From: Bryopsis sp. KO-2023
Lineage: Eukaryota; Chlorophyta; Ulvophyceae; Bryopsidales; Bryopsidaceae
DNA: 64,000 bases
Direction: 5' to 3'
NCBI GenBank assembly: GCA_030272585.1
Contig: BSYQ01000004.1
Coordinates: 4,960,001 to 5,024,000, forward strand
Shown one piece after another: positions 27,183 to 61,666 of the stretch (its first letter is position 1; the number at the start of each line of letters is the position of its first letter). Under the pieces are notes generated by a model. That model had not been told where the DNA came from, did no database searches, and saw only the letters and a list, made by a program, of their open reading frames with translations. The translations under genes and the position numbers were made by a program.

Positions 27183-30100
27183 CTTTTGGGTGGGGGGAGG
27201 GGTTCTTTTTTTTTATGTTGTTTTTTTACGTAGTGTATTGGAGGTGAGAGCATGTGACCTGGCGGAGGAGTCGAAACAAAAAGAAGAAAAAGAGAAAACC
27301 CATTCGATTATGATTTTCTGGGGGGTTTTCTGGGGGTTTCTGGATACTGCATGAGATGGTGTAAGGTTTTCCTGCAAAAATGTGGTTTTCGTCCTGCCCT
27401 GTGCTGGTGTGAGTGTATTTTTTTATGTGTGTTTTGGATGCATATATGTGTCGGGATGGCAGCAGGATGTGTGTGGTTTTTGCTTTTGGGGAAAAAAAAG
27501 AAAGGAAAAATGAACATGTAGAGAAGAAAAACAAGAAAAAAAGAAAGGTTTGTTTTTATGCATACAACCGGGCTCAAATCAAACTGCGTTGTGTATACAG
27601 TGGATGGATCTTAATTTTTGGCCTTCGAAAAAAAACAACAGGAAAAAAAAAAAAAAGAATTTGCGCTTCGGGGACGAAAAGAAAAAGAAAAAGAAAAAAG
27701 GAATTTGGCTTGCGAAAAAAAAAAGTAAAAGAAAAAACATTGTTGCATTTTTTTTTCTGTCGAAAAATATGTCAAGAAGCAGCAAGCGTTTTGTTTTGTT
27801 TCGTTATGTTCTTTTTTTTGTTTTAATATGAGTGGTAAGGTTTTTTTGCCTTTTCAGTTTATTATCAAAAAAAAAAACAAATGTCGAAAAAAAAGAAGGA
27901 AATTCACAAACACACACCAACACCACCACTTGAAAAAAAGAATCTTAAAAAAAATCAACTCCCGAAAAGAAGAACTGTTTTTGTTGTGGAAAAAAATGAA
28001 ACAAAAAAAAAGAACAGTGTTTGGGTGTTCAATAGTTGAGAATTAATAGTACGTGATAAAGAAAAAACTATCGATGAAAAAAAAAAAAAAAAGACAGAAA
28101 AAAAAGAGATCGTTTTTTCAAGAATCCAACCATGTCGGATTCGGGCTGGCAAGTTTTTTTTTTGTTTGTCATTTGTGCAAAAAAAGAAAAGGAAAAAAAA
28201 AAAAAAAAAGAGGGAAAAAAAAAATGAAGCCGGGGTTTGCTTTTATTGTTTGTTTTACGCTCTCCTTTGAACAAAAAAAGAATTACTTGTCAAAAAGGAG
28301 GGTTATGTTTCGAAAAAGAAAAGTTACGAAGCGAAAAGGAGGGTTATGTTTCAAAAAAGAAAAGCTTGTGGGTTTTTGTTGCGATTTGTATCTAGATTTC
28401 CATCTTGTGGGGGAATTTTCTTATGTAATCAGGAGAAGTTTTGAGTTTTCCAATTGCAATTGACCAGGGGGGAGGGCACCGGGGGGGGTATCGTGCAAGC
28501 AAAACAAGAGGAGAGGAAAACAAAAATATTCAAGCTGGGGGGACGGGAAAGAATTGATGAGGAAAAAAAAAGGGGGGAAAACTATCACTGGATTAAGGCA
28601 GGGAAAAAAAAAAGGGAAGAAAAAAAAATCGTCGATTGGGGGGGGGTGATTAATTATTGGGGTGCTGCTCCTCAACCATCCCAAAAAAGCTTTAAAAAAA
28701 AGAAAAGAAAAGAAAACAGAACAGAACTTTTTTTTTTCTTGATGTTTTTTTGTGAGTGTGCAAGAAGTAGCGTGATATTTTATCTCCATGAAGCCAAAAA
28801 CTTGAAAAAAAAAAAGAAAAAAGAATGAGTGAGAAAAATTCTGGGGATAAGTTCTTTCAATTTGGCTTGTTTCTTTCTTGCGATGTTTCCCTCATCATCC
28901 GTCAGAAATTTTTTGGAGGGGCAAAAAAAGAGAAAAAAAGAATTACAGAAAAAAAGCAGGAAGAAAAAGAGAAACTCTCCACGCTTGCTCGTTTGTCTCT
29001 CTCTACTTTTTTTTTCTTTTTTTTTTCTCCTTCATTCATGGAGATTTCTAAACTTTTCCATGGGGGATATATCATTACTTTTTGATGAGTATTGTGGTTG
29101 GGAAAAAAAAAAACGGACTTGATGGACATTGAGGAAAAAAAAGAAAAGACAATGTTTTTTTTTTGGGAAAAAAAGTGAGGGTGGAGATCGGAGAGCAACG
29201 CTGAAGTGGAATATCATCCCTTTTAGAATTGGGGATTGGGAAAGAATATGAAAAAAAAAGGCACCGTCCACACGCAGTATTCATTTCCTCTGGGTGGTGG
29301 AAAAGAATACTGTGGTTTGGGAGGAGGCTGGTCGGTGACCCTGATCTGTGTATATTTTGATCAGTGAACCCAGCAAATTTAGGAAAGGATGCTTCAAAAA
29401 ATGAGCATTCCTGAAAAGCATCATCCTGAAAAAAATATGTGTGTGTGGCATCGGGTAGTGAAACGGGAAAGGAAGAATTACATACGGACTTGAATTGGTG
29501 GGGGTATGCGAGATTCTCAACTGAAGCTTGAAACAAAACAACAAAAAAAAATGCCGCATACAAAAGGGCTGAATTAAAACCCTGAGGGAAAAAAAATCCT
29601 AAAAAAAAAACAAAAAAACAATGAGCAGTTTTTGAGGTGTTTATGTGTTTTTTTTTCGTTATTCGTGAGCTGTGAATATTAAAACAAAAAGAGCTTTATG
29701 AGTTTTTTTTTTCTTTTTTTTTGTTATTGTAAGGAGGTCGTGTGGAATGGTTCGGTTTTTTTTATTTTTGTGTTTTTTTTTTTAATTATTATTTTGGGGG
29801 TGGTTATGCACTTTTGTTGTTCGATTTTTGTAACTTGTTCTTTTTCCTTTTTATGTATGGATAGGACCTGGGAAATAAGCATGAGTTGGGAAAGGTGGGG
29901 AAGGGAAAAAAAAAAAGAAAAGATGCTCCCTCTAATAGAGAAAAATGGAAGGATTGAGGGGGTGGGGTGGGGTGGGGTTAGTAGTAAGGGAAATGGTGTA
30001 ATTTGGGTGAATATATGAAATATTCAAAATCGCTCAGGGGGAATGAAGGCAAAACACTATCATTTTCGGTTCTCGAGTAGAGGGGCTTGGATAGGATGTG

Positions 30101-40840: not shown

Positions 40841-42104
40841 ATGGATAACCGACGCTCGAGTTCGAGGAAGAGAGCGGAGGAAATTGGGTGGGTAAAAAAA
40901 AAAACTTCTCTTTTGCGAATTTGAAAAGGACAGTTGAGAAAGGTGAAGGTGGTCCTTTTTTTCAAGGAATTTTTTTTTTTGGCTGTGGACCATTGGAAAT
41001 CCAAAACATTGAATAAGGTTGAGTGGAGCGTTTCTGTTATTGGACTTTTGTTTCACAAGTTTTGAAACTAATCAAAAATTTTCAAATCGAAAATTTTAAA
41101 ATCAAATAATGAGTTTATCATGGACTGCCCTTGTAACACTTTATTGCTGAAAATTGTTTGTGGGGCTGAATTTTGAGATAGTGCTAAAGTCTTTATTGCA
41201 CACTACTTTTAGTGATTGATTTTGCCCATTTTTTTTCCCCCTGAAAAATAAATCCAAAGGAGGGAGAAAATCCCACCCAAAAAAAAAAAACTGGCGAATG
41301 TGTTAGTCCATTTGGTGAATGTTTGGTTGTGTGTGCAGAGATGTTTTTCTGGCCATGGCTCTGGTGGCGCTTCTGTTGGGGGCCATGTATTTTTGGCTTT
41401 GTGTGTTCCTGGCCATGCAGCCAGCCCCTCCTCCCGATGTCCCGACTTACCCGGAGCTCGCTCGATACTACGCACGCCCGGTAAGTTTTTTTGCTATCGT
41501 TTTTTTTTCTTTTTTTCTTAGAATACAAATATGAACATCTATACGAGGTGACTTATAAAAAAAAACTGGATGTCAAGAAAAAGGGAGAAAAAAAAAATGA
41601 AATCTGAATTGAGACTAAAGAATGGAAAAAGGAGGGAAAAAAGGAATTAAAAAAAGTTATTCGGGTCCTCTTTCTACCATCCCTTGCAATCCTGATCACC
41701 ATTTTTCAGCAGTCTAACTTCAAGTCGAATCAGTTAATGCATTTTCATTTGAAGAACTTCTGGTTTAGAATAAGAAAAGAAAAAAAATCTGTCACATAAA
41801 AACTTCAATTTTTTTGCAGACTTGTGACGCCCCGATCGCTGCCATGTCTGACTCCACCGAGACCGAGCCTGAGCCCCTGCCCCAGCCTGAGCCCGAGAAG
41901 TCCTTCCGCCAGAGTTGCCTGAGGTACATGGTCGATGTGCTGATCGTGTTCATCGGGCGTTTCCTGTTCCGGTCGATCTTCGCCTTTGCCACCACCAGCC
42001 CCACCATCATCAATATCGCCATTGCCGCTGTCGATAAATCCACTGCAGCCACCATCTGGATTTGTCTACGGATTCGGCGGTTGGCGGGGCTTAGGCCCAT
42101 ATAA
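40841..42104 (+). CDS. Small membrane protein of unknown function
   Basis: Exons 40841-40887, 41339-41480 and 41820-42104 join in phase 2 and then phase 0 (donors GG/GTGGGT and CCCG/GTAAGT, acceptors GTGTGCAG and TTTTTGCAG), giving 157 residues. The N terminus is basic (MDNRRSSSRKRAEE). A first hydrophobic segment MALVALLLGAMYFWLCVFLA is followed by a proline-rich stretch (PAPPPDVPTYPELARYY), an acidic linker (STETEPEPLPQPEPEKS) and a second hydrophobic segment including VDVLIVFIGRFLF and IINIAIAAV. The C terminus is basic. No family is recognised. The stop codon is followed directly by an A run and the minisatellite, so the 3' untranslated region would lie in repeat DNA. Confidence 0.65.
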
Positions 42105-45100
42105 AAAAAAAAAAAAAAAAACCAGGGGGAGGGGGGGGGGGGGGGGAGTTGGGAAAAAAAAAGAAAATCAGGGTAAAACAAAAAGAAATACCATCTTGTT
42201 ATGGTATAGGGAGTTTGTGAAAGGTCTGGATGTTTGTATTTTGGGGTGGGAATTATCTAAAAAAAAAAAAAGAAAATCAGGGTAAAACAAAAAGAAATAC
42301 CATCTTGTTATGGTATAGGGAGTTTGTGAAAGGTCTGGATGTTTGTATTTGGGGGTGGGAATTATCTATAAAAAAAAAGAAAAGAAAATCAGGGTAAAAC
42401 AAAAAGAAATACCATCTTGTTATGGTATGGGGAGTTTGTGAATGGTCTGGATGTTTGTATTTGGGGGTGGGAATTATCTAAAAAAAAAAAAAAAGAAAAT
42501 CAGGGTAAAACAAAAAGAAATACCATCTTGTTATGGTATAGGGAGTTTGTGAATGGTCTGGATGTTTGTATTTGGGGGTGGGAATTATCTAAAAAAAAAA
42601 AAAAAGAAAATCAGGGTAAAACAAAAAGAAATACCATCTTGTTATGGTATAGGGAGTTTGTGAATGGTCTGGATGTTTGTATTTGGGGGTGGGAATTATC
42701 TAAAAAAAAAAAAAAAGAAAATCAGGGTAAAACAAAAAGAAATACCATCTTGTTATGGTATAGGGAGTTTGTGAATGGTCTGGATGTTTGTATTTGGGGG
42801 TGGGAATTAACTAAAAAAAAAAAAAAAGAAAATCAGGGTAAAACAAAAAGAAATACCATCTTGTTATGGTATAGGGAGTTTGTGAATGGTCTGGATGTTT
42901 GTATTTGGGGGTGGGAATTATCTAAAAAAAAAAAAAAGAAAATCAGGGTAAAACAAAAAGAAATACCATCTTGTTATGGTATGGGGAGTTTGTGAATGGT
43001 CTGGATGTTTGTATTTGGGGGTGGGAATTATCTATAAAAAAAAAAAAGAAAATTAGGGTAAAACAAAAAGAAATACCATCTTGTTATGGTATAGGGAGTT
43101 TGTGAAAGGTCTCGATGTTTGTATTTGGGGTGGGAATTATCTAAAAAAAAAAAAAAAAGAAAATCAGGGTAAAACAAAAAGAAATACCATCTTGTTATGG
43201 TATAGGGAGTTTGTGAAAGGTCTGGATGTTTGTATTTGGGGTGGGAATTATCTAAAAAAAACAAAAAAAAGAAAATTAGGGTAAAACAAAAAGAAATACC
43301 ATCTTGTTATGGTATAGGGAGTTTGTGAAAGGTCTGGATGTTTGTATTTGGGGTGGGAATTATCTAAAAAAAAAAAAAAAAAGAAAATCAGGGTAAAACA
43401 AAAAGAAATACCATCTTGTTATGGTATAGGGAGTTTGTGAATGGTCTGGATGTTTGTATTTGGGGGTGGGAATTATCTAAAAAAAAAAAAAAGAAAATCA
43501 GGGTAAAACAAAAAGAAATACCATCTTGTTATGGTATGGGGAGTTTGTGAATGGTCTGGATGTTTGTATTTGGGGGTGGGAATTATCTATAAAAAAAAAA
43601 AAGAAAATTAGGGTAAAACAAAAAGAAATACCATCTTGTTATGGTATAGGGAGTTTGTGAAAGGTCTGGATGTTTGTATTTGGGGGTGGGAATTATCTAT
43701 AAAAAAAAAGAAAAGAAAATCAGGGTAAAACAAAAAGAAATACCATCTTGTTATGGTATGGGGAGTTTGTGAATGGTCTGGATGTTTGTATTTGGGGGTG
43801 GGAATTATCTAAAAAAAAAAAAAAAGAAAATCAGGGTAAAACAAAAAGAAATACCATCTTGTTATGGTATAGGGAGTTTGTGAATGGTCTGGATGTTTGT
43901 ATTTGGGGGTGGGAATTATCTAAAAAAAAAAAAAAAGAAAATCAGGGTAAAACAAAAAGAAATACCATCTTGTTATGGTATAGGGAGTTTGTGAATGGTC
44001 TGGATGTTTGTATTTGGGGGTGGGAATTATCTAAAAAAAAAAAAAAAGAAAATCAGGGTAAAACAAAAAGAAATACCATCTTGTTATGGTATAGGGAGTT
44101 TGTGAATGGTCTGGATGTTTGTATTTGGGGGTGGGAATTATCTAAAAAAAAAAAAAAGAAAATCAGGGTAAAACAAAAAGAAATACCATCTTGTTATGGT
44201 ATGGGGAGTTTGTGAATGGTCTGGATGTTTGTATTTGGGGGTGGGAATTATCTATAAAAAAAAAAAAGAAAATTAGGGTAAAACAAAAAGAAATACCATC
44301 TTGTTATGGTATAGGGAGTTTGTGAAAGGTCTCGATGTTTGTATTTGGGGTGGGAATTATCTAAAAAAAAAAAAAAAAGAAAATCAGGGTAAAACAAAAA
44401 GAAATACCATCTTGTTATGGTATAGGGAGTTTGTGAAAGGTCTGGATGTTTGTATTTGGGGTGGGAATTATCTAAAAAAAAAAAAAAAAGAAAATTAGGG
44501 TAAAACAAAAAGAAATACCATCTTGTTATGGTATAGGGAGTTTGTGAAAGGTCTGGATGTTTGTATTTGGGGTGGGAATTATCTAAAAAAAAAAAAAAAA
44601 GAAAATCAGGGTAAAACAAAAAGAAATACCATCTTGTTATGGTATAGGGAGTTTGTGAAAGGTCTGGATGTTTGTATTTTGGGGTGGGAATTATCTAAAA
44701 AAAAAAAAAGAAAATCAGGGTAAAACAAAAAGAAATACCATCTTGTTATGGTATAGGGAGTTTGTGAAAGGTCTGGATGTTTGTATTTGGGGGTGGGAAT
44801 TATCTATAAAAAAAAAGAAAAGAAAATCAGGGTAAAACAAAAAGAAATACCATCTTGTTATGGTATGGGGAGTTTGTGAATGGTCTGGATGTTTGTATTT
44901 GGGGGTGGGAATTATCTAAAAAAAAAAAAAAAGAAAATCAGGGTAAAACAAAAAGAAATACCATCTTGTTATGGTATAGGGAGTTTGTGAATGGTCTGGA
45001 TGTTTGTATTTGGGGGTGGGAATTATCTAAAAAAAAAAAAAAAGAAAATCAGGGTAAAACAAAAAGAAATACCATCTTGTTATGGTATAGGGAGTTTGTG

Positions 45101-46797
45101 AATGGTCTGGATGTTTGTATTTGGGGGTGGGAATTATCTAAAAAAAAAAAAAAAGAAAATCAGGGTAAAACAAAAAGAAATACCATCTTGTTATGGTATA
45201 GGGAGTTTGTGAATGGTCTGGATGTTTGTATTTGGGGGTGGGAATTATCTAAAAAAAAAAAAAAAGAAAATCAGGGTAAAACAAAAAGAAATACCATCTT
45301 GTTATGGTATAGGGAGTTTGTGAATGGTCTGGATGTTTGTATTTGGGGGTGGGAATTATCTAAAAAAAAAAAAAAGAAAATCAGGGTAAAACAAAAAGAA
45401 ATACCATCTTGTTATGGTATGGGGAGTTTGTGAATGGTCTGGATGTTTGTATTTGGGGGTGGGAATTATCTATAAAAAAAAAAAAGAAAATTAGGGTAAA
45501 ACAAAAAGAAATACCATCTTGTTATGGTATAGGGAGTTTGTGAAAGGTCTCGATGTTTGTATTTGGGGTGGGAATTATCTAAAAAAAAAAAAAAAAGAAA
45601 ATCAGGGTAAAACAAAAAGAAATACCATCTTGTTATGGTATAGGGAGTTTGTGAAAGGTCTGGATGTTTGTATTTGGGGTGGGAATTATCTAAAAAAAAA
45701 AAAAAAAGAAAATTAGGGTAAAACAAAAAGAAATACCATCTTGTTATGGTATAGGGAGTTTGTGAAAGGTCTGGATGTTTGTATTTGGGGTGGGAATTAT
45801 CTAAAAAAAAAAAAAAAAGAAAATCAGGGTAAAACAAAAAGAAATACCATCTTGTTATGGTATAGGGAGTTTGTGAATGGTCTGGATGTTTGTATTTGGG
45901 GGTGGGAATTATCTAAAAAAAAAAAAAAGAAAATCAGGGTAAAACAAAAAGAAATACCATCTTGTTATGGTATGGGGAGTTTGTGAATGGTCTGGATGTT
46001 TGTATTTGGGGGTGGGAATTATCTATAAAAAAAAAAAAGAAAATTAGGGTAAAACAAAAAGAAATACCATCTTGTTATGGTATAGGGAGTTTGTGAAAGG
46101 TCTCGATGTTTGTATTTGGGGTGGGAATTATCTAAAAAAAAAAAAAAAAGAAAATCAGGGTAAAACAAAAAGAAATACCATCTTGTTATGGTATAGGGAG
46201 TTTGTGAAAGGTCTGGATGTTTGTATTTGGGGTGGGAATTATCTAAAAAAAAAAAAAAAAGAAAATTAGGGTAAAACAAAAAGAAATACCATCTTGTTAT
46301 GGTATAGGGAGTTTGTGAAAGGTCTGGATGTTTGTATTTGGGGTGGGAATTATCTAAAAAAAAAAAAAAAAGAAAATCAGGGTAAAACAAAAAGAAATAC
46401 CATCTTGTTATGGTATAGGGAGTTTGTGAATGGTCTGGATGTTTGTATTTGGGGTGGGATTTATCTAAAAAAAAAAAAAAAAGAAAATCAGGGTAAAACA
46501 AAAAGAAATACCATCTTGTTATGGTATAGGGAGTTTGTAAATGGTCTGGATGTTTGTATTTGGGGTGGGATTTATCTAAAAAAAAAGAAAATCAGGGTAA
46601 AACAAAAAGAAATACCATCTTGTTATGGTATAGGGAGTTTGTGAAAGGTCTGGATGTTTGTATTTGGGGGTGGGCATTATCTATAAAAAAAAAAAAAAAA
46701 ATCAGGGTAAAACAAAAAGAAATACCATCTTGTTATGGTATAGGGAGTTTGTGAAAGGTCTGGATGTTTGTATTTGGGGGTGGGAATTATCTTTAAA
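42105..46797 (+). repeat. Minisatellite: 42 tandem copies of a ~111-bp unit
   Basis: The anchor CCATCTTGTT occurs 42 times from 42191 to 46725 at spacings of 109-112 bp (one of 104). A unit is a variable A run, GAAAATCAGGGTAAAACAAA, an ATACCATCTTGTTATGGTAT core, GGGAGTTTGTGAA, GGTCTGGATG and a TTTGGGGGTGGGAATTATCT end. Variants (ATAGGG or ATGGGG; GAAAGG or GAATGG; CTGGATG or CTCGATG; CAGGG or TAGGG; four or five G) recur in order: copies 1-13 match copies 23-35, a shift of 2438 bp, and copies 14-22 repeat most of the same order. Units of exactly 111 bp keep frame, so apparent 37-residue repeat proteins appear on both strands; these are not taken as genes. Confidence 0.97.
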
Positions 46798-46879
46798 AAA
46801 AAACAAAAAAAGTATGGACGGAAAAAAAAGAAAAAAAGAAAGAAAGAAAGGGCGTGTTCGTGAGGGAACAGAGGTGCAT

Positions 46880-47025
46880 ATTTTTATTCTTTATTTCTTA
46901 TTTTTTATTTCTTATTCTTTATTTCTTATTCTTTATTTCTTATTCTTTATTTCTCATTCTGTATTTCTTATTTTTTATTTCTTATTCCTTATTTCTTATT
47001 CTTCATTTCTTATTCTTTATTTATT
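46880..47025 (+). repeat. TTTATTTCTTATTC-type tandem repeat
   Basis: About ten degenerate units of 14-15 bp of the form ATTTCTTATTCTTT, with point changes. A strong strand asymmetry is visible (nearly all pyrimidine plus A on the plus strand). Confidence 0.85.
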
Positions 47026-50000
47026 CATTTGGAAAAAAGGATTTATTGAGAGCTTGGGGTCAGAAAACAATCATGCATACATTCTGGAAGGAAGGAGTGT
47101 CACAAAAAGGCTGGAGAAAGAAAAACAGATGAGAATTACAGGGGGACCCTCAATCAGGATTTGGAAGGGGGGGTGTGGATATGATTTTGAAAAAGAAGCA
47201 CAAGAGAGAACGAAAGAATCCATGCCGTGATTCAAGGTGACAAAGATTGGGGAAAGTTAATTCATCGTTTCTGTTCGAAACGAAACGAAACATTCTATGG
47301 AAAAATGTTTATGGAGGAGAATGGAGAGATGGGGAAATCGAGACATCGTCGATTCTCAGTGGGTTTTGTGCACCTTTGAGAAAATTGAAAAAAAAGAAAG
47401 CATGGGGAGGAATATAAAATATGGGGTTTGGAAGGGAAATCGGTGATGGTCAGGCAAAAACAAAAAGAAGAAATTTGTCGGAGTTTCAGTATGTGGGAAG
47501 CTGGTGGTCCAGATTTCCTGATATGGGATGTCAAAACTAAACTGAACTGGGTTTTGTTGGCATCGCTGTTAATCAACATGGAGGTGTCGACGGGGAAATT
47601 GGTTTTTTCCTGTCGGGAAAGGATTGAGGTTTTCAGGCTAAGGAAAGGAAGGGAAGGATATGGCTTGATGGCCCGTGTCCCAGTGAAGGAATATGGAGAT
47701 CTTCTAGCAGAAATGGAGCTAAATCATGGAGAAAAAAAGAAAAAAACATTGTTTAGGGAGAACCGGCCTGTAGCATTTCTTCCCTCCCAAGAAAAACCCA
47801 GAAACAAAAAGTGGACAGTTGATCGCCACCAACCTCTTATGGTAGAGGTCGGCGGCGATCGACTAGGAAACCCCACCTCAACATGGGTGGTGGATCGGGT
47901 GAGGGAGGGAAGTGGGTGGGTTGCACAGAAGGCCGGGATTCCTGGAATGGAGAGCTTTGTTTTGGGGAAAAAAGGGAAGAAAAACAAATGAGGCGGAATG
48001 GATGGTGCCGGATAGAACTGAGATTTTATTCGCCGCCATATTCAAGAAAATTGGAAACAAGATGCTCAACAAGGAGGGGCAGTTTGAAGATCAGCTTATT
48101 GGTGGGGTCAAAGAGGGGAGAGGTTCCACTGAGGTTTCTTTCCTCATCAAATGGGACCTGAGCTGTGGGTTTTTTGTTTCTGCTGGGTGCAGTGGATCAT
48201 TGCGACAATCAGGTGAATTTTTTTTTTCTTTGGGTTGCATGGAAAAAAAAGTTGTTTCTTTTGCCCTTCAGCACTTCTTCCTTCCCAAAATCTAGTAAAA
48301 AAAAAGTGGACAGTGGATTGCCACCAACCTCTGATTGGATGAGGTCGGCGGCAATCTACTCAAACCCCACCCCAACATGGGTGGTGGACTAGGTTCAGGG
48401 GTGGAAGTGGGTGGGGGGCAGAAAAGGGCAAGATTTAAAAACAAAAAAAAAAGAAAGAAAAACAGAAATGAGGCAAAATCGATGGATGAACGATGCGTTG
48501 GAGAAAACTGGGATTCTTACGAACCAAAAGCAGTGGAAGTGTTTTTTTTTATTATTTCGGACATGGTGGACTGATGGGTAAAGTAATGGATTCTGTTTGG
48601 GTATTTTTTGGCGAGCCCACTCTTTAGCATTTCTTCCCTCCCAAAATCTTAGAAGAAAAGAAGGAAAACCTTGGAAAACAGAAAAAAAGGGAAGGAGTGG
48701 GTGATAAGAGTTGATCGGAACTGATTATTTGAGTTTGGTAAATGATATTTACATGGACAAATTGTGGGTTTGCAATTTTAGTGGGTCACCCCCCAGTCCC
48801 CCTACCCTCCCTAAATGGCACGAGTACTGGACAGTTTATCGCAACCAACCTCTGAATGAATGAGGTCGGCAGCGATCGACTCGAAAATGCCCGAAAAATG
48901 GGTAGGGTTGTGGAGGAGTGGGGGACAAAAGGGGGTGGGTGTTCATTATACATTCAAAATCTCAATTTTGTAAAGAAATGAAATTGGATGATGATCTTTT
49001 TTTATCTCTGTTTTGTGCACAAAATTTGATGTTGGCTGTTTCATATGACTGACTGCATAAAATCACAGAGACTATTTCTGGATGACGAATTTGTGGTTGG
49101 TCATCCACACACACACAACAGCATTTTTTCCAGTCTGTTGCCTCTTCCAGGCAATATTACTTGACTGTTTGGCTTGCCAGCTGTGAATACTACCTCCCAC
49201 TTTTTCTTGAATGCAAACCGAGCTCTTTTCTTTTGTGTGATGGCTGTTTATTGGTTTTTGGGACACCTTTTTTTTTTCTTGGAGACCTCCCTTTCTCGTG
49301 TATAATTGTTTATATATATATAGCGGAGCGAACAAAAGCCCCCAAAAAAGCAACAGCATGGTGAATGCACAATGAGGAAACCAGTAAGCAGGGAAATCAA
49401 TACAAGCAACATGTTACCAATACAAATTTTTAAAAAAGAAAAACCGATCCATCGGGCAAACAAACAGCAAACAGAACAAAAAAAAAAGGACCCAACAATT
49501 GTTCCTATGCAGAATATAATACCCCATCCCCATCAATTTCCCCCATTCTCTGTACAATCCTTGGAATGTACACCCCAGGCATTTCCTTGCATGACACGTA
49601 TTCATCAGTGCCCTCATCGTTTGCACAATAAAGGAAAACAGCATGAAAAAATTGTATCAAAAAGCATGCTGTCAGCAAACTTATATTCATTTTCATCTCA
49701 TTGCTGAGGCAAATCATCAGCAGGATTGGTTTCGAGCATTTCCTTTTAAAATGTGGAGCGATAGAAACCACCACAATAAGGACAAAAAAAAATGCCTTTC
49801 TTGTGACAGAACCCTGTTGTATTCTTGGGAGTTCCCAAGCTAGTTTTTTTTTTTGATGGTGCGGATGCGGGTCAAGATTTTTCCAACATTTCCAATCCCC
49901 AATCTGGTGAGAAGCCAAATTTCCCGCAGATCACAGATCTGTTTCTATATGTTTCTAAGAACATGGCGTCAGCTCACCTCTTTTCATAGCTTTCATCACC

Positions 50001-58121: not shown

Positions 58122-60038
58122 ATGGTTGGAATCAACTCTGCCGACAAATACCGTGCCCCCAAGCTCGAAAAGTTTGACGGGAAGAAACCCCCAGCCGCCG
58201 AATGGTTTAAAACCGTGGAGGCTACGGCCACGGCGCAAAACTGGCCATCTCGCTCAAAAGTCAGTCGGGCTAAAGCCAATTTCACGCACGGAGCGGCTCG
58301 ATGGGCGACGGCTCTCCCAGAAGATATGAGCTGGGAGAACTTCAGGAAAAAGTTCATGAAGAGGTGGCTGGGAGCTACGGACGATCTGATGAGTGAGCTA
58401 ACTCGGCGTCGTCAACGGCCGACGGAAACGGTGGAGGATTTCGCAGACGCCCTTCGAGGCTTAGCAGAAGATATTACAGACATACAGACTGCGACACGCA
58501 CCGACGGCGCTACTCCGATTACGCTGAACGACGAGTTTCTTCGTCATATCTTCCAGGTTGGAATACCTTCGAAAATTAGGGATGCTATAGCCCCTCTCCA
58601 ACACCAGAACTTCGATGAGGTGGTGAATGCTGCAAAGGCAGTGGAAGGGTTAGGTATGAATAAGAAAAGAGGAGCCCCAGACAGCACAGATTCTGATTCT
58701 GATACAGAAAAGAATACTGGACAGACTTCAGACTCAAAAGAAGACAAACTTTTGAGTAAAGTGATGAACAAAGTCCAGAAAGTATTAGATGGGCAGATCA
58801 GCAAAATCTATGCAGCTCTTCCAGCTCCAGAAGAGAGACTGCAGGAATGGAGGAAGAAAGTGAATGGGGGAGCTTCAGGGAACAGAGGTGGAGGGAGACA
58901 GACTTTTGGGGGCAGCAGGCCCAGGGGCTACTATAGTCCTTTATTGAATAGGGATTTGATGCTGGGGGATTGCTGGAATTGTGGAGTACCAGGACACAGA
59001 TGGGGAAGGTGCCCTCAGAAAAAGGCGGGAGTGTCCTACAGCCTCCAGTACAGGGCAGGCAACACTCCTTTAGTTGTTCAGGAAAAAGATTCAAGGAACT
59101 TTAGAACTCAGGGCCCTCAAATGAACATGGTAGAAGGAAAGACTTCAGGAGGGGAAAACAAGTATAGGATGGGGAACAAACATGCTCTGACAGATGCTCA
59201 GGCCTTCCTGGACAAGACTGAGTTGCCAGTACCTCTAAAAACATTTATGTTTTACTCCCCTGAACTCAGGGAGGCTATTATGAGAGAGGCAGAGTTAATG
59301 ACATCAGTGGATGCTGGGGTGACCCAACCCCTCCACTTTGAACCGGAAATCAGTGGCCAGGGGACTGAGAACAAAGAGGTGGGCATGTTGGAGGTTGACA
59401 CCCTGCAAAGAGAGGATGCCTCCAGGAACACCCCTGCCAAGTGTGCCATCAGGATCAAAGGGGAGACATTAGAAGCAGTGGTGGACACTGGGGCTAGCCA
59501 CAGTTGCATCTCAAAGGCGACTGTAGAAAAGCTTGACCTGGTGGGGCAGGTCTTACCCTCTGAATGGGTTTTTAGGACTGCCTCTGGGGAAATAGCCACC
59601 TCCCTTGGGTACCTCCCCAAGCTCTTTGTAAACATAGGAGGGACAGGCTCCTATAACTCTTTTATGGTTACAGACACAGACACCTGCTGTGTGCTGCTGG
59701 GGATAGACTTCTTAAAATCTATCAGGGCTATGATAATGCTGGGACCACAGCAAATATTTTATCATAAGGGAAATGGGAAGATGGGGGCTATCCCTCTCAA
59801 GACAGAGGAGAAACAAATCCTGGAGACAGAGGAAACAGTCCAGGCTGCAGTAGGGAAAAAGAGAAAAGGAGGGAAGCTGACCCAGGAGAAAAAGGTCAGG
59901 TTTGACACCACCCCTGAAACCATCCCAAAGGAAGCTCCACATAGCCCTTTGCCATCAGGATTTGGACAGAGGAGTGCCCCAGCCACAGGAGTATTGAAAA
60001 ACAAGGGAGGAGAAGGACCTTCAAAGGATTTTCACTAA
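58122..60038 (+). CDS. gag-pro: Retrotransposon Gag-protease polyprotein (Ty3/gypsy type)
   Basis: An intact frame of 638 residues. The capsid-like part shows the retrotransposon Gag pattern (FTHGAARWATALPE, MSWENFRKKFMKRWLG, RQRPTETVEDFADALRGLA). A CCHC zinc knuckle (CWNCGVPGHRWGRC) lies near residue 283, after a G/R-rich stretch. An aspartic protease follows, with the active-site LEAVVDTGASHSCIS near residue 454 and LLGIDFL later. The C terminus is Lys-rich. The frame ends at TAA 60036-60038 while the RT frame is already open in -1. Codon choice shifts from mixed to A/G-rich (AGG, GGA) after about 58600. Confidence 0.93.
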   Translation: MVGINSADKYRAPKLEKFDGKKPPAAEWFKTVEATATAQNWPSRSKVSRAKANFTHGAARWATALPEDMSWENFRKKFMKRWLGATDDLMSELTRRRQRPTETVEDFADALRGLAEDITDIQTATRTDGATPITLNDEFLRHIFQVGIPSKIRDAIAPLQHQNFDEVVNAAKAVEGLGMNKKRGAPDSTDSDSDTEKNTGQTSDSKEDKLLSKVMNKVQKVLDGQISKIYAALPAPEERLQEWRKKVNGGASGNRGGGRQTFGGSRPRGYYSPLLNRDLMLGDCWNCGVPGHRWGRCPQKKAGVSYSLQYRAGNTPLVVQEKDSRNFRTQGPQMNMVEGKTSGGENKYRMGNKHALTDAQAFLDKTELPVPLKTFMFYSPELREAIMREAELMTSVDAGVTQPLHFEPEISGQGTENKEVGMLEVDTLQREDASRNTPAKCAIRIKGETLEAVVDTGASHSCISKATVEKLDLVGQVLPSEWVFRTASGEIATSLGYLPKLFVNIGGTGSYNSFMVTDTDTCCVLLGIDFLKSIRAMIMLGPQQIFYHKGNGKMGAIPLKTEEKQILETEETVQAAVGKKRKGGKLTQEKKVRFDTTPETIPKEAPHSPLPSGFGQRSAPATGVLKNKGGEGPSKDFH

Positions 60039-61666
60039 GGTCAGAGGTCAGGCCTGGTGACCTCAGGGGTGTGGCCACAGGGCTACACAAGTTTACTACT
60101 AGGGGAGTGCCTCCTCAGGAATCAGTGTTGGTGGCACAGGAGGAAAAGATATCTACTTTTGCTGACTTGAACATAGGAAAAAGTCTTTCCAGAGATGAAA
60201 GAAGGGCGGTGGAGAAGTTATGCAAGAGTAGGAGGGAGGCCTGGTCTCTAAGTGAATACGAGATAGGCTCCTTTAAAAATCATAGCTATGAAATAGAAAC
60301 TGGCACAGCCAGGCCTGTAGCCAGGAGACAGTATAGAGTCAGTGAATTCCAGAAAGGGGAAATAGAAAGACAGTTAGAAGGGTTGCTGAAAGTAGGGGTA
60401 GTTAGACCCAGCCCAGGGTCACCCTGGTCTTCACCCACCCTCCTGGTTCCTAAGAAGGCTCCAGGGAAGTGGAGGTGGTGTGTAGACTTTAGGGATCTAA
60501 ACAATTTAGTGGAGGCAGATCAGTACCCTCTGCCATTGATTGATGAGCTACTGGATGGGCTGGGAGGAAGAAAATATTATTCTAGTTTAGATTTGAAATC
60601 AGGGTACTGGCAGTTACCCCTAGCAGAGGAGGATAGGAAAAAAACAGCCTTCAGAACTTCCTCTGGGTTATATGAATGGGTTAGGTGTCCTCAGGGACTA
60701 AAAACAATGCCAGAGGCTTTCCAGAGAGTTATGGATTCTCTATTTGGTCATTTAGAAGGGGTCCAGGTTTATTTAGATGATATAGTGATTTTTAGTTACA
60801 CCTTCCAGGAACACCTGGAAACTCTGGAAAAGGTGTTAGAAATTCTGGAGAAGGAGGGAGCCAAGCTATCCATAGAAAAGTGTTTTCTATTTCAGGAGGA
60901 AATAGAATACTTAGGACACCACATTACTAAAGCTGGCTTCAGCCCCCAAGAGGATAAGATGGCCTCTATAGCCAGACTAAAAACACCTACTACTGTCACT
61001 CAAGTTAGGTCTTTCCTAGGACTTACTGGATACTACAGAAGACATGCTCCAGACTATGCTAGGAGGGCAGGAGCTCTGACAGAACTCACTAAGGAAGGAG
61101 TACCCTTTCTTTGGACTTGGAGATGTGAATATTCATGGAGGCTGCTGAAAAAGATGCTTACAACAGCTCCAGTAGTGACTACTCTAAGGAGGGAAGGGGA
61201 GGTGTTCTTATGCACTGACTGGAGTCAGTATGCTATAGCAGGAGTATTAGGTCAGATTCAGGAGGGGCAGGAAAAGGTAATCGCCTACTTCTCTAAAAAG
61301 AATAGTGAAACAGAAGCTAGATATGCTCCTAGTCAAGGAGAGGCTATGGCAGTGATTAAGACTATTAGAAAATTTAGTTACTATTTGACAGGAAGGAAGT
61401 TTACTTTATTTACTGACTGTGGGGCTTTGATCTGGCTTATGGGTTCTAGACACTTATCCAACATGATGGCCAGATGGGTTTTAGAATTACAAGGGTTTGA
61501 TTTCAAGGTAATCCATAAGCCTGGGAAGCACCATGTCAATGCAGATGCATTGTCCAGGCTTGTGATGAATAGAGAAAAGAAAAAGGAGGCTCAGGGTCGG
61601 CCTACAGTGTCTGATCGTTTACTTTTAGGAAAAACAGTGAAAATAGGGGAGTCTGGGAAGAAGTGA
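59945..61666 (+). CDS. pol: Reverse transcriptase-RNase H
   Basis: The frame opens at 59945 after TAG and overlaps the Gag-protease frame by 94 bases in the -1 frame, so translation by -1 frameshifting is likely; G_AAA_AAC at 59996-60002 is a near-canonical slip site. First in-frame residues have no ATG. The RT has VVRPSPGSPWSSPTLLVPKK, RWCVDFRDLNN, SLDLKSGYWQ and the catalytic YLDDI; RNase H follows with FLCTDWSQYAIAGVLG and FTDCGALIWL. The frame ends ...NADALSRL and a basic tail. No damage is seen. Ty3/gypsy (Metaviridae-like) assignment rests on domain order and RT motifs. Confidence 0.93.
   Translation, partial: PFAIRIWTEECPSHRSIEKQGRRRTFKGFSLRSEVRPGDLRGVATGLHKFTTRGVPPQESVLVAQEEKISTFADLNIGKSLSRDERRAVEKLCKSRREAWSLSEYEIGSFKNHSYEIETGTARPVARRQYRVSEFQKGEIERQLEGLLKVGVVRPSPGSPWSSPTLLVPKKAPGKWRWCVDFRDLNNLVEADQYPLPLIDELLDGLGGRKYYSSLDLKSGYWQLPLAEEDRKKTAFRTSSGLYEWVRCPQGLKTMPEAFQRVMDSLFGHLEGVQVYLDDIVIFSYTFQEHLETLEKVLEILEKEGAKLSIEKCFLFQEEIEYLGHHITKAGFSPQEDKMASIARLKTPTTVTQVRSFLGLTGYYRRHAPDYARRAGALTELTKEGVPFLWTWRCEYSWRLLKKMLTTAPVVTTLRREGEVFLCTDWSQYAIAGVLGQIQEGQEKVIAYFSKKNSETEARYAPSQGEAMAVIKTIRKFSYYLTGRKFTLFTDCGALIWLMGSRHLSNMMARWVLELQGFDFKVIHKPGKHHVNADALSRLVMNREKKKEAQGRPTVSDRLLLGKTVKIGESGKK

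Follow-up and report, generated by a model that had tools for sequence, protein, structure and literature searches.

Behind a small gene of the green alga Bryopsis sp. KO-2023 lies a run of repeats of about 111 bp, and we asked what kind of element this is, how its units came to be ordered as they are, and whether it is tied to the chromosome at large or to the gene that precedes it. The window analyzed (the whole stretch of 64,000 nucleotides at C4:4960001-5024000, within a contig of 7,414,136 bases) forms part of a 91.1-Mb assembly of 28 contigs, which served for all genome searches. Contig C28 (91,672 bp) bears an ORF recognizable as plastid rbcL of the green type, which, together with the telomere-type repeats described below, agrees with a green alga as the source. 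Its dominant tandem array, the minisatellite of ~4.66 kb, occupies positions 42154-46811 on the forward strand, as are all features below (TRF: period 111, 42.1 copies, 97% matches). The count of 42 copies given in the original prediction was confirmed by TRF, by unit typing and by a 37-mer search: cutting the array at a common motif yielded 42 units of 104-112 bp each (the last was scored as 114 bp, its ragged end included), and a 37-nt segment that all 42 units share letter for letter produced 42 matches without mismatch and, at up to three mismatches, none elsewhere in the window, where 100 shuffles led us to expect none. Minisatellites have units of roughly 10-150 bp in arrays that are kilobases long, and this is a tandem array of kilobase scale at a single locus (42 x ~111 bp, 4.66 kb, one place in 91 Mb). 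Twenty more stretches of 10 kb each, chosen by position and not at random, were screened across the genome; none held an array as long (TRF, periods up to 500), and only at the start of contig C2 was there one of ~1 kb with a period above 100.

Several simpler identities were rejected. A coding repeat (VNTR protein) would have to pass 48 to 62 stops per frame in all six frames of the array, in which the longest open stretches reach up to 207 codons despite stops in every frame; and because unit length varies from 104 to 112 bp, the reading frame shifts along the array. The whole window gave no Rfam match at gathering scores, which discounts a known structured RNA, and a transposon-derived tandem repeat was discarded when the genome search, which passes over simple repeats and words of very high frequency, returned no copy of the unit outside the array. 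The strand is markedly asymmetric in composition, with 25.0% G and 6.3% C in the array and a GC skew of 0.55 at 42001-44000 and 0.60 at 44001-46000.

The order of the units preserves a readable history. When unit cores (94-95 nt) were typed, 12 core types emerged, arranged as ABCDDEDCFGH DCICDDDCFGH ABCDDDDCFGH DCFGH JKLB, and we compared the mean edit distance between units at lags 1 to 30 with that in 5000 permutations of their order. At lag 11 the mean distance was 2.29, as opposed to 3.98 +/- 0.34 in permutations, and at lag 22 it was 1.85, values that none of the 5000 permutations reached. Neighboring units (lag 1) were likewise closer than chance at 3.27, a value reached by 30 of 5000 permutations, and lags 10, 12 and 5 were reached by 68, 81 and 129. 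Units 11 or 22 positions apart are thus more alike than immediate neighbors, as in a higher-order repeat, and these permutation results set the higher-order period at 11 units (~1.22 kb), so that the shift of 22 units (2438 bp) noticed earlier represents two 11-unit blocks.

Core typing and the lag test delimit three such blocks: block 1 (42164-43383; units 1-11, ABCDDEDCFGH), block 2 (43384-44601; units 12-22, DCICDDDCFGH) and block 3 (44602-45819; units 23-33, ABCDDDDCFGH). Blocks 1 and 3 are separated by 3 edits over 1220 bp, and block 2 stands further off, at 16 edits from block 1 and 13 from block 3. There follows a five-unit duplicate, DCFGH (45820-46372; units 34-38), that matches units 29-33 with 0 edits in 553 bp, and the array closes with four terminal units, J, K, L and B (46373-46811; units 39-42, from core typing and edit distances), among which the steps from 40 to 41 (11 edits) and from 41 to 42 (6 edits) are among the largest neighbor distances in the array. 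What had been proposed about this order holds: units 1-13 correspond to units 23-35 at a shift of 2438 bp with 3 edits (1440 vs 1438 bp), much of the order recurs in between (in units 12-22, where units 14-22 had been named), and the period of 11 together with the exact five-unit duplicate attests the duplication of multi-unit blocks and not just single-unit slippage, runs of single units being present as well (lag 1).

One unit seems to combine parts of two types. Unit 14 (type I), in block 2, follows a C unit and bears the 5' T mark seen in four of four F units in that position, whereas its 3' marks are of B type and its tail is the same as that of B units 2 and 24; the combination of an F-like start with B-type marks and tail identifies it as an F/B-like hybrid, best read as having formed within the unit through recombination or conversion. 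Unit tails, compared by length and sequence with the A-run included, agree throughout slots 4-9 (21 of 21 units); slots 10 and 11 each have one deviating copy out of four, and slots 1-3 deviate in block 2, the rearranged block. The uniformity in slots 4-9 indicates that blocks are copied there faster than A-runs slip. Some marks remain private to their block, namely E in unit 6, a tail C in unit 10 and the hybrid unit 14. Interspersed variants of 12 core types, an order of period 11 and a hybrid unit are what a minisatellite shaped by block duplication and conversion displays.

The gene that precedes the array (40841-42104) encodes a small protein with two hydrophobic stretches in about three exons (~40841-40887, 41339-41480 and 41820-42104, read by eye with putative splice sites) and ends with a TAA at 42102-42104. 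The array had been predicted to start at this stop codon, which it does not: 49 bp intervene (42105-42153), an A-tract followed by a G-tract, similar in kind to the 3' flanks of the paralogues described below (flank comparison; profile hit at 42074-42146, E 6.2e-10). Transcripts of the gene had been predicted to end in the array or to run through it, but their poly(A) site could also lie in this tract ahead of it. The protein has no Pfam match. A search of its own genome with the conceptual protein returned 13 matches at E up to 1. Three of these correspond to the exons of the gene itself; of the rest, seven fall within 4.30-4.67 Mb of C4 and three on C2. The ten other places are paralogous loci, and the gene therefore belongs to a duplicated family. 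In five of the ten a TAG lies inside the match, and the one at the very end of the match at locus L056 may be that copy's stop. Among the titles and opening lines of abstracts listed from open-licence literature, none concerned such a gene family, which may nevertheless have been described in print.

We compared 950 bp at the 3' end of six of the ten paralogous places (L051-L056), two of which, L052 and L054, lie 48.5 kb apart and are identical over 949 bp, so that the six comprise five distinct flanks. Past the coding end, all six show an A-rich tract and then a G-tract, and three carry a TRF array with a period above 100 bp (146 bp in L051, 133 bp in L053 and 101 bp in L055). The other three, including the mutual copies, have no TRF array of period above 100 bp within 950 bp, and L056 shows just one distant 85% direct repeat in the 950 bp read. 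These arrays resemble the 111-bp array in gene family and 3' interval but differ in their units, none of which has a match in the window, and in position: they begin at 515-657 of the 950 bp read (~490-640 bp past the coding end), whereas the 111-bp array stands right behind the G-tract, so the interval is common to them and the starting point is not.

In the genome search, the 146-bp unit occurred at no fewer than 21 places in C4:4610555-4613574, the 101-bp unit at 22 or more places in C4:4431556-4433757, and the 133-bp unit in at least about 2.5 copies. The 101- and 133-bp units are related (78-83% over 58-102 bp; 76% in a separate genome search), and their two arrays need not, therefore, be independent births; single stretches related to them lie ~1.3 kb behind the gene copies at 4638846 and 4669098. 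Over the stretch of the 101-bp array that was read, copies two units apart are 97% alike as against 94% for neighbors, and part of the array shows matches of 100% and 94% in alternation, a pattern like that of a two-unit higher-order repeat. The 146-bp query also matched, at 76-84%, at least C4:4620430-4625091, C4:4887878-4890008 and C11:686195-688702. In the 600 bp before two of the 146-bp-related arrays (L057 and L058) the same flank modules stand in tandem with a spacing of 107-108 bp, and this flank stretch recurs on C11 (86%). The gene search found no match beside the 146-bp-type arrays of L057, L058 and C11, which indicates that the flank has spread with or without a recognizable gene copy. 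Several other arrays are present at 4.43-4.89 Mb of C4.

Within the window, sequence homologous to the paralogue flanks extends over ~42072-42148 and ends at the array, with the exception of short A-rich matches (~81%) between L055 181-222 and many of the 111-bp units. It resumes on the far side, where L054 from ~614 onward aligns with 46998-47372 (score 184 vs 88 for the largest of 200 shuffles; best part 47054-47113, 82%). From the G-tract to this downstream block the distance is ~0.56 kb in L054 vs ~4.9 kb in the window, and the longer interval is almost all tandem repeat: 4.66 kb of 111-bp array and 0.14 kb of a second array of 14-bp units in the same 3' interval (46879-47022; TATTTCTTATTCTT, 10.4 copies by TRF).

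Viewed by eye, the 111-bp unit and the flank modules share a layout (A-rich, hairpin, GGGTGGGAA, A-rich) and a similar length, and L057 and L058 have a similar period. Descent of the unit from the flank modules is nevertheless not supported by sequence comparison. In local alignments with five flanks, 24 to 156 of 300 shuffles scored as well; against the profile of module 1, unit type D scored -0.6 and type G did not match, with at least 11 of 300 shuffles higher (up to 7.3), and that of module 2 gave 2.6 (type D) and -5.8 (type G) vs up to 5.8 in shuffles (the profiles took in L055 and left out the truncated first copy of L057). With profile scores inside the range of the shuffles and no significant alignment, no link between the unit and the flank modules could be established, which counts against the reading favored below.

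The alternative that survives best assigns the array a function as 3'-UTR or terminator, in which an array of hairpin modules would govern how the 3' end of the mRNA forms, or the stability or localization of that mRNA. Every unit had been said to contain an inverted pair, and ATACCAT-CTTGTT-ATGGTAT is indeed intact in 42 of 42 units (motif search and folding; first copy at 42188-42207, all 42 identical), as a functional array would have it. In addition, hairpin modules occur in this interval of paralogue flanks too, with one pair per stem changed on both sides in each of two stems, and L057 and L058 repeat the hairpin module in tandem. However, the absence of all nine variable columns from the 20-nt inverted repeat is not beyond chance (P = 0.11), and one unit folded as RNA gave z = -1.96, with 7 of 200 shuffles folding at least as well; the inverted pair thus stands as predicted, and the RNA stem proposed along with it is possible, though weakly favored by the fold. 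The covariation score of the paralogue hairpins was matched by 58 of 500 and 66 of 500 shuffles, from 5 and 9 related rows with one unpaired cell each (L052, being a copy of L054, was excluded, and the module-1 set merges L055 with L054, which has the same letters), so that compensatory changes are suggestive at most. The hairpin letters of the window, moreover, differ from those of the paralogue modules and lack profile homology to them. We regard this function as unlikely. Still more doubtful is a bolder version, by which the 3' tails of the family would be RNA-hairpin cassettes: modules of hairpin, A-rich and G-rich sequence of ~107-111 bp, their stems drifting by paired changes and their copy number amplified independently at each locus, with the 42-copy array as the extreme; copy number would then tune, gene by gene, how mRNA 3' ends form or where the mRNA is localized.

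A centromeric or subtelomeric satellite with higher-order repeats, that is, a chromosome-wide family of structural DNA, is very improbable. Centromeric DNA of the alpha-satellite type is built of multi-unit blocks and forms very large arrays on many chromosomes. The 111-bp array resembles it in having multi-unit blocks more identical than neighboring units, and the further arrays at 4.43-4.89 Mb of the same contig could be taken to point the same way, but it amounts to one 4.7-kb locus among genes. The genome-wide search by which the suggested centromeric or subtelomeric placement was to be judged went against it: all 42 matches of the unit in the 91-Mb assembly fall at this one place, whereas a centromeric satellite would be marked by a single family forming large arrays on most chromosomes or all of them. 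The 20-nt hairpin core behaves similarly, with 42 exact matches, all in the array, and six others, each with three mismatches, scattered over the genome. As for the 146-bp-type arrays, those among the matches listed are on C4 and C11 only. The window lies in the interior of its contig (4.96-5.02 of 7.41 Mb), and the telomere-type repeat CCCTAAA was found at the starts of C1, C3 and C4 (of C4, the start was read). Recognizable genes flank the array on either side: nine ORFs of the window were scanned, with matches to MFS_MOT1, condensin Cnd3, a kinase, a D-glutamate cyclase-like protein and retrotransposon families, the remainder giving weak hits and, in two cases, no match. The surroundings are gene-bearing DNA and not a satellite domain. 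An assembly artefact, with blocks collapsed or falsely duplicated, is just as improbable: near-identical copies (0 edits in 553 bp, 3 in 1440) are where assemblers fail, yet the blocks have private marks and differing unit orders, the end units have diverged, and an 11.4-Mb contig (C1) suggests a long-read assembly.

We therefore consider it likely that the array is a locus-private minisatellite on a nuclear chromosome that arose in the instability-prone 3' flank of a duplicated-family gene; that sister genes bear other arrays in their tails favors an unstable gene-tail region over a centromere. The array would have been born inside the 3' interval between G-tract and downstream block of one family member and would have grown by out-of-register recombination, either unequal sister exchange or synthesis-dependent strand annealing, which duplicated several units at a time (5, 11 or more), gave rise to one or more within-unit hybrids, and was accompanied by gains of single units. 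A-runs, the 7-bp hairpin that every unit contains and a strong G-over-C strand skew beside the gene may have caused the instability, by provoking replication stalls, breaks and misaligned repair. Against this reading weigh the three of six flanks that lack such an array, the differing starting points and the kinship of the 101- and 133-bp units. Instability of the flank is deduced from one assembly, and the array itself is probably without a selected function.

Among known systems, the closest parallels are hypervariable minisatellites with MVR maps (human MS32, CEB1 and MSY1), which share with the 111-bp array locus-specific variant maps, duplication of unit runs and apparent intra-array conversion. 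Differences are that the 111-bp array has an 11-unit higher-order period of its own, that it is known here from one assembly and that some sister genes carry other arrays. The units of MSY1, moreover, are 25 bp and never vary in length, according to PMC2599865, in contrast to the variable units of 104-112 bp described here.

The element itself is of a known type, its setting an uncommon one. Considered alone, the locus is an ordinary minisatellite whose history can be read from its units, and its family setting is the more useful part: at least four family members have arrays in this 3' interval, and the units are of three or more kinds (111 bp; 146 bp; 101 and 133 bp, which are related). If strains vary, these arrays are ready length markers, and the gene family offers a natural replicate experiment on the birth and growth of minisatellites, in which the contribution of flank sequence may be weighed against that of chance.

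Two of the 3' flanks that follow paralogues of the small gene ending at 42104, at 4481780 and 4530320 of contig C4 (BSYQ01000004.1) and 48.5 kb apart, are identical over 949 bp, and on this sequence identity the pair is evidently a recent segmental duplication. Two further gene copies on the same contig, at 4638846 (- strand) and 4669098 (+ strand), look like an inverted pair. Within the window, the profile built from the paralogues' 3' flanks also weakly matches 29928-30044 (E 0.001), a segment in which a G-tract occurs together with a CTCAGGGGGAAT-like module; this match may reflect either chance or a decayed flank.

At C4:4625092-4625691 and C4:4887278-4887877, a tandem hairpin module with a period of 107-108 bp lies ahead of a 146-bp-type array, and a gene search of the genome detected no gene copy adjoining either set of modules.

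The 3' interval of the gene, which holds the main 111-bp array, also contains a second tandem array at 46879-47022, with 10.4 copies of a 14-bp unit. Elsewhere in the window, two ORFs at 58122-61666 (+ strand) match gag/aspartyl protease and reverse transcriptase/RNase H domains, and we take this pair to be a Ty3/gypsy-type retrotransposon.

Repeats were also found at contig starts: The first 10,000 bp of C2 are very dense in them (31 TRF rows), including one array of 7.6 copies of 134 bp, alternatively read as 3.8 copies of 267 bp. The first 10,000 bp of C3 carry three arrays of a 164-bp unit (2.9 copies each) spaced 1999 bp apart, with CCCTAAA repeats at both ends of the array-bearing stretch; this stretch looks like subtelomeric blocks of approximately 2 kb.
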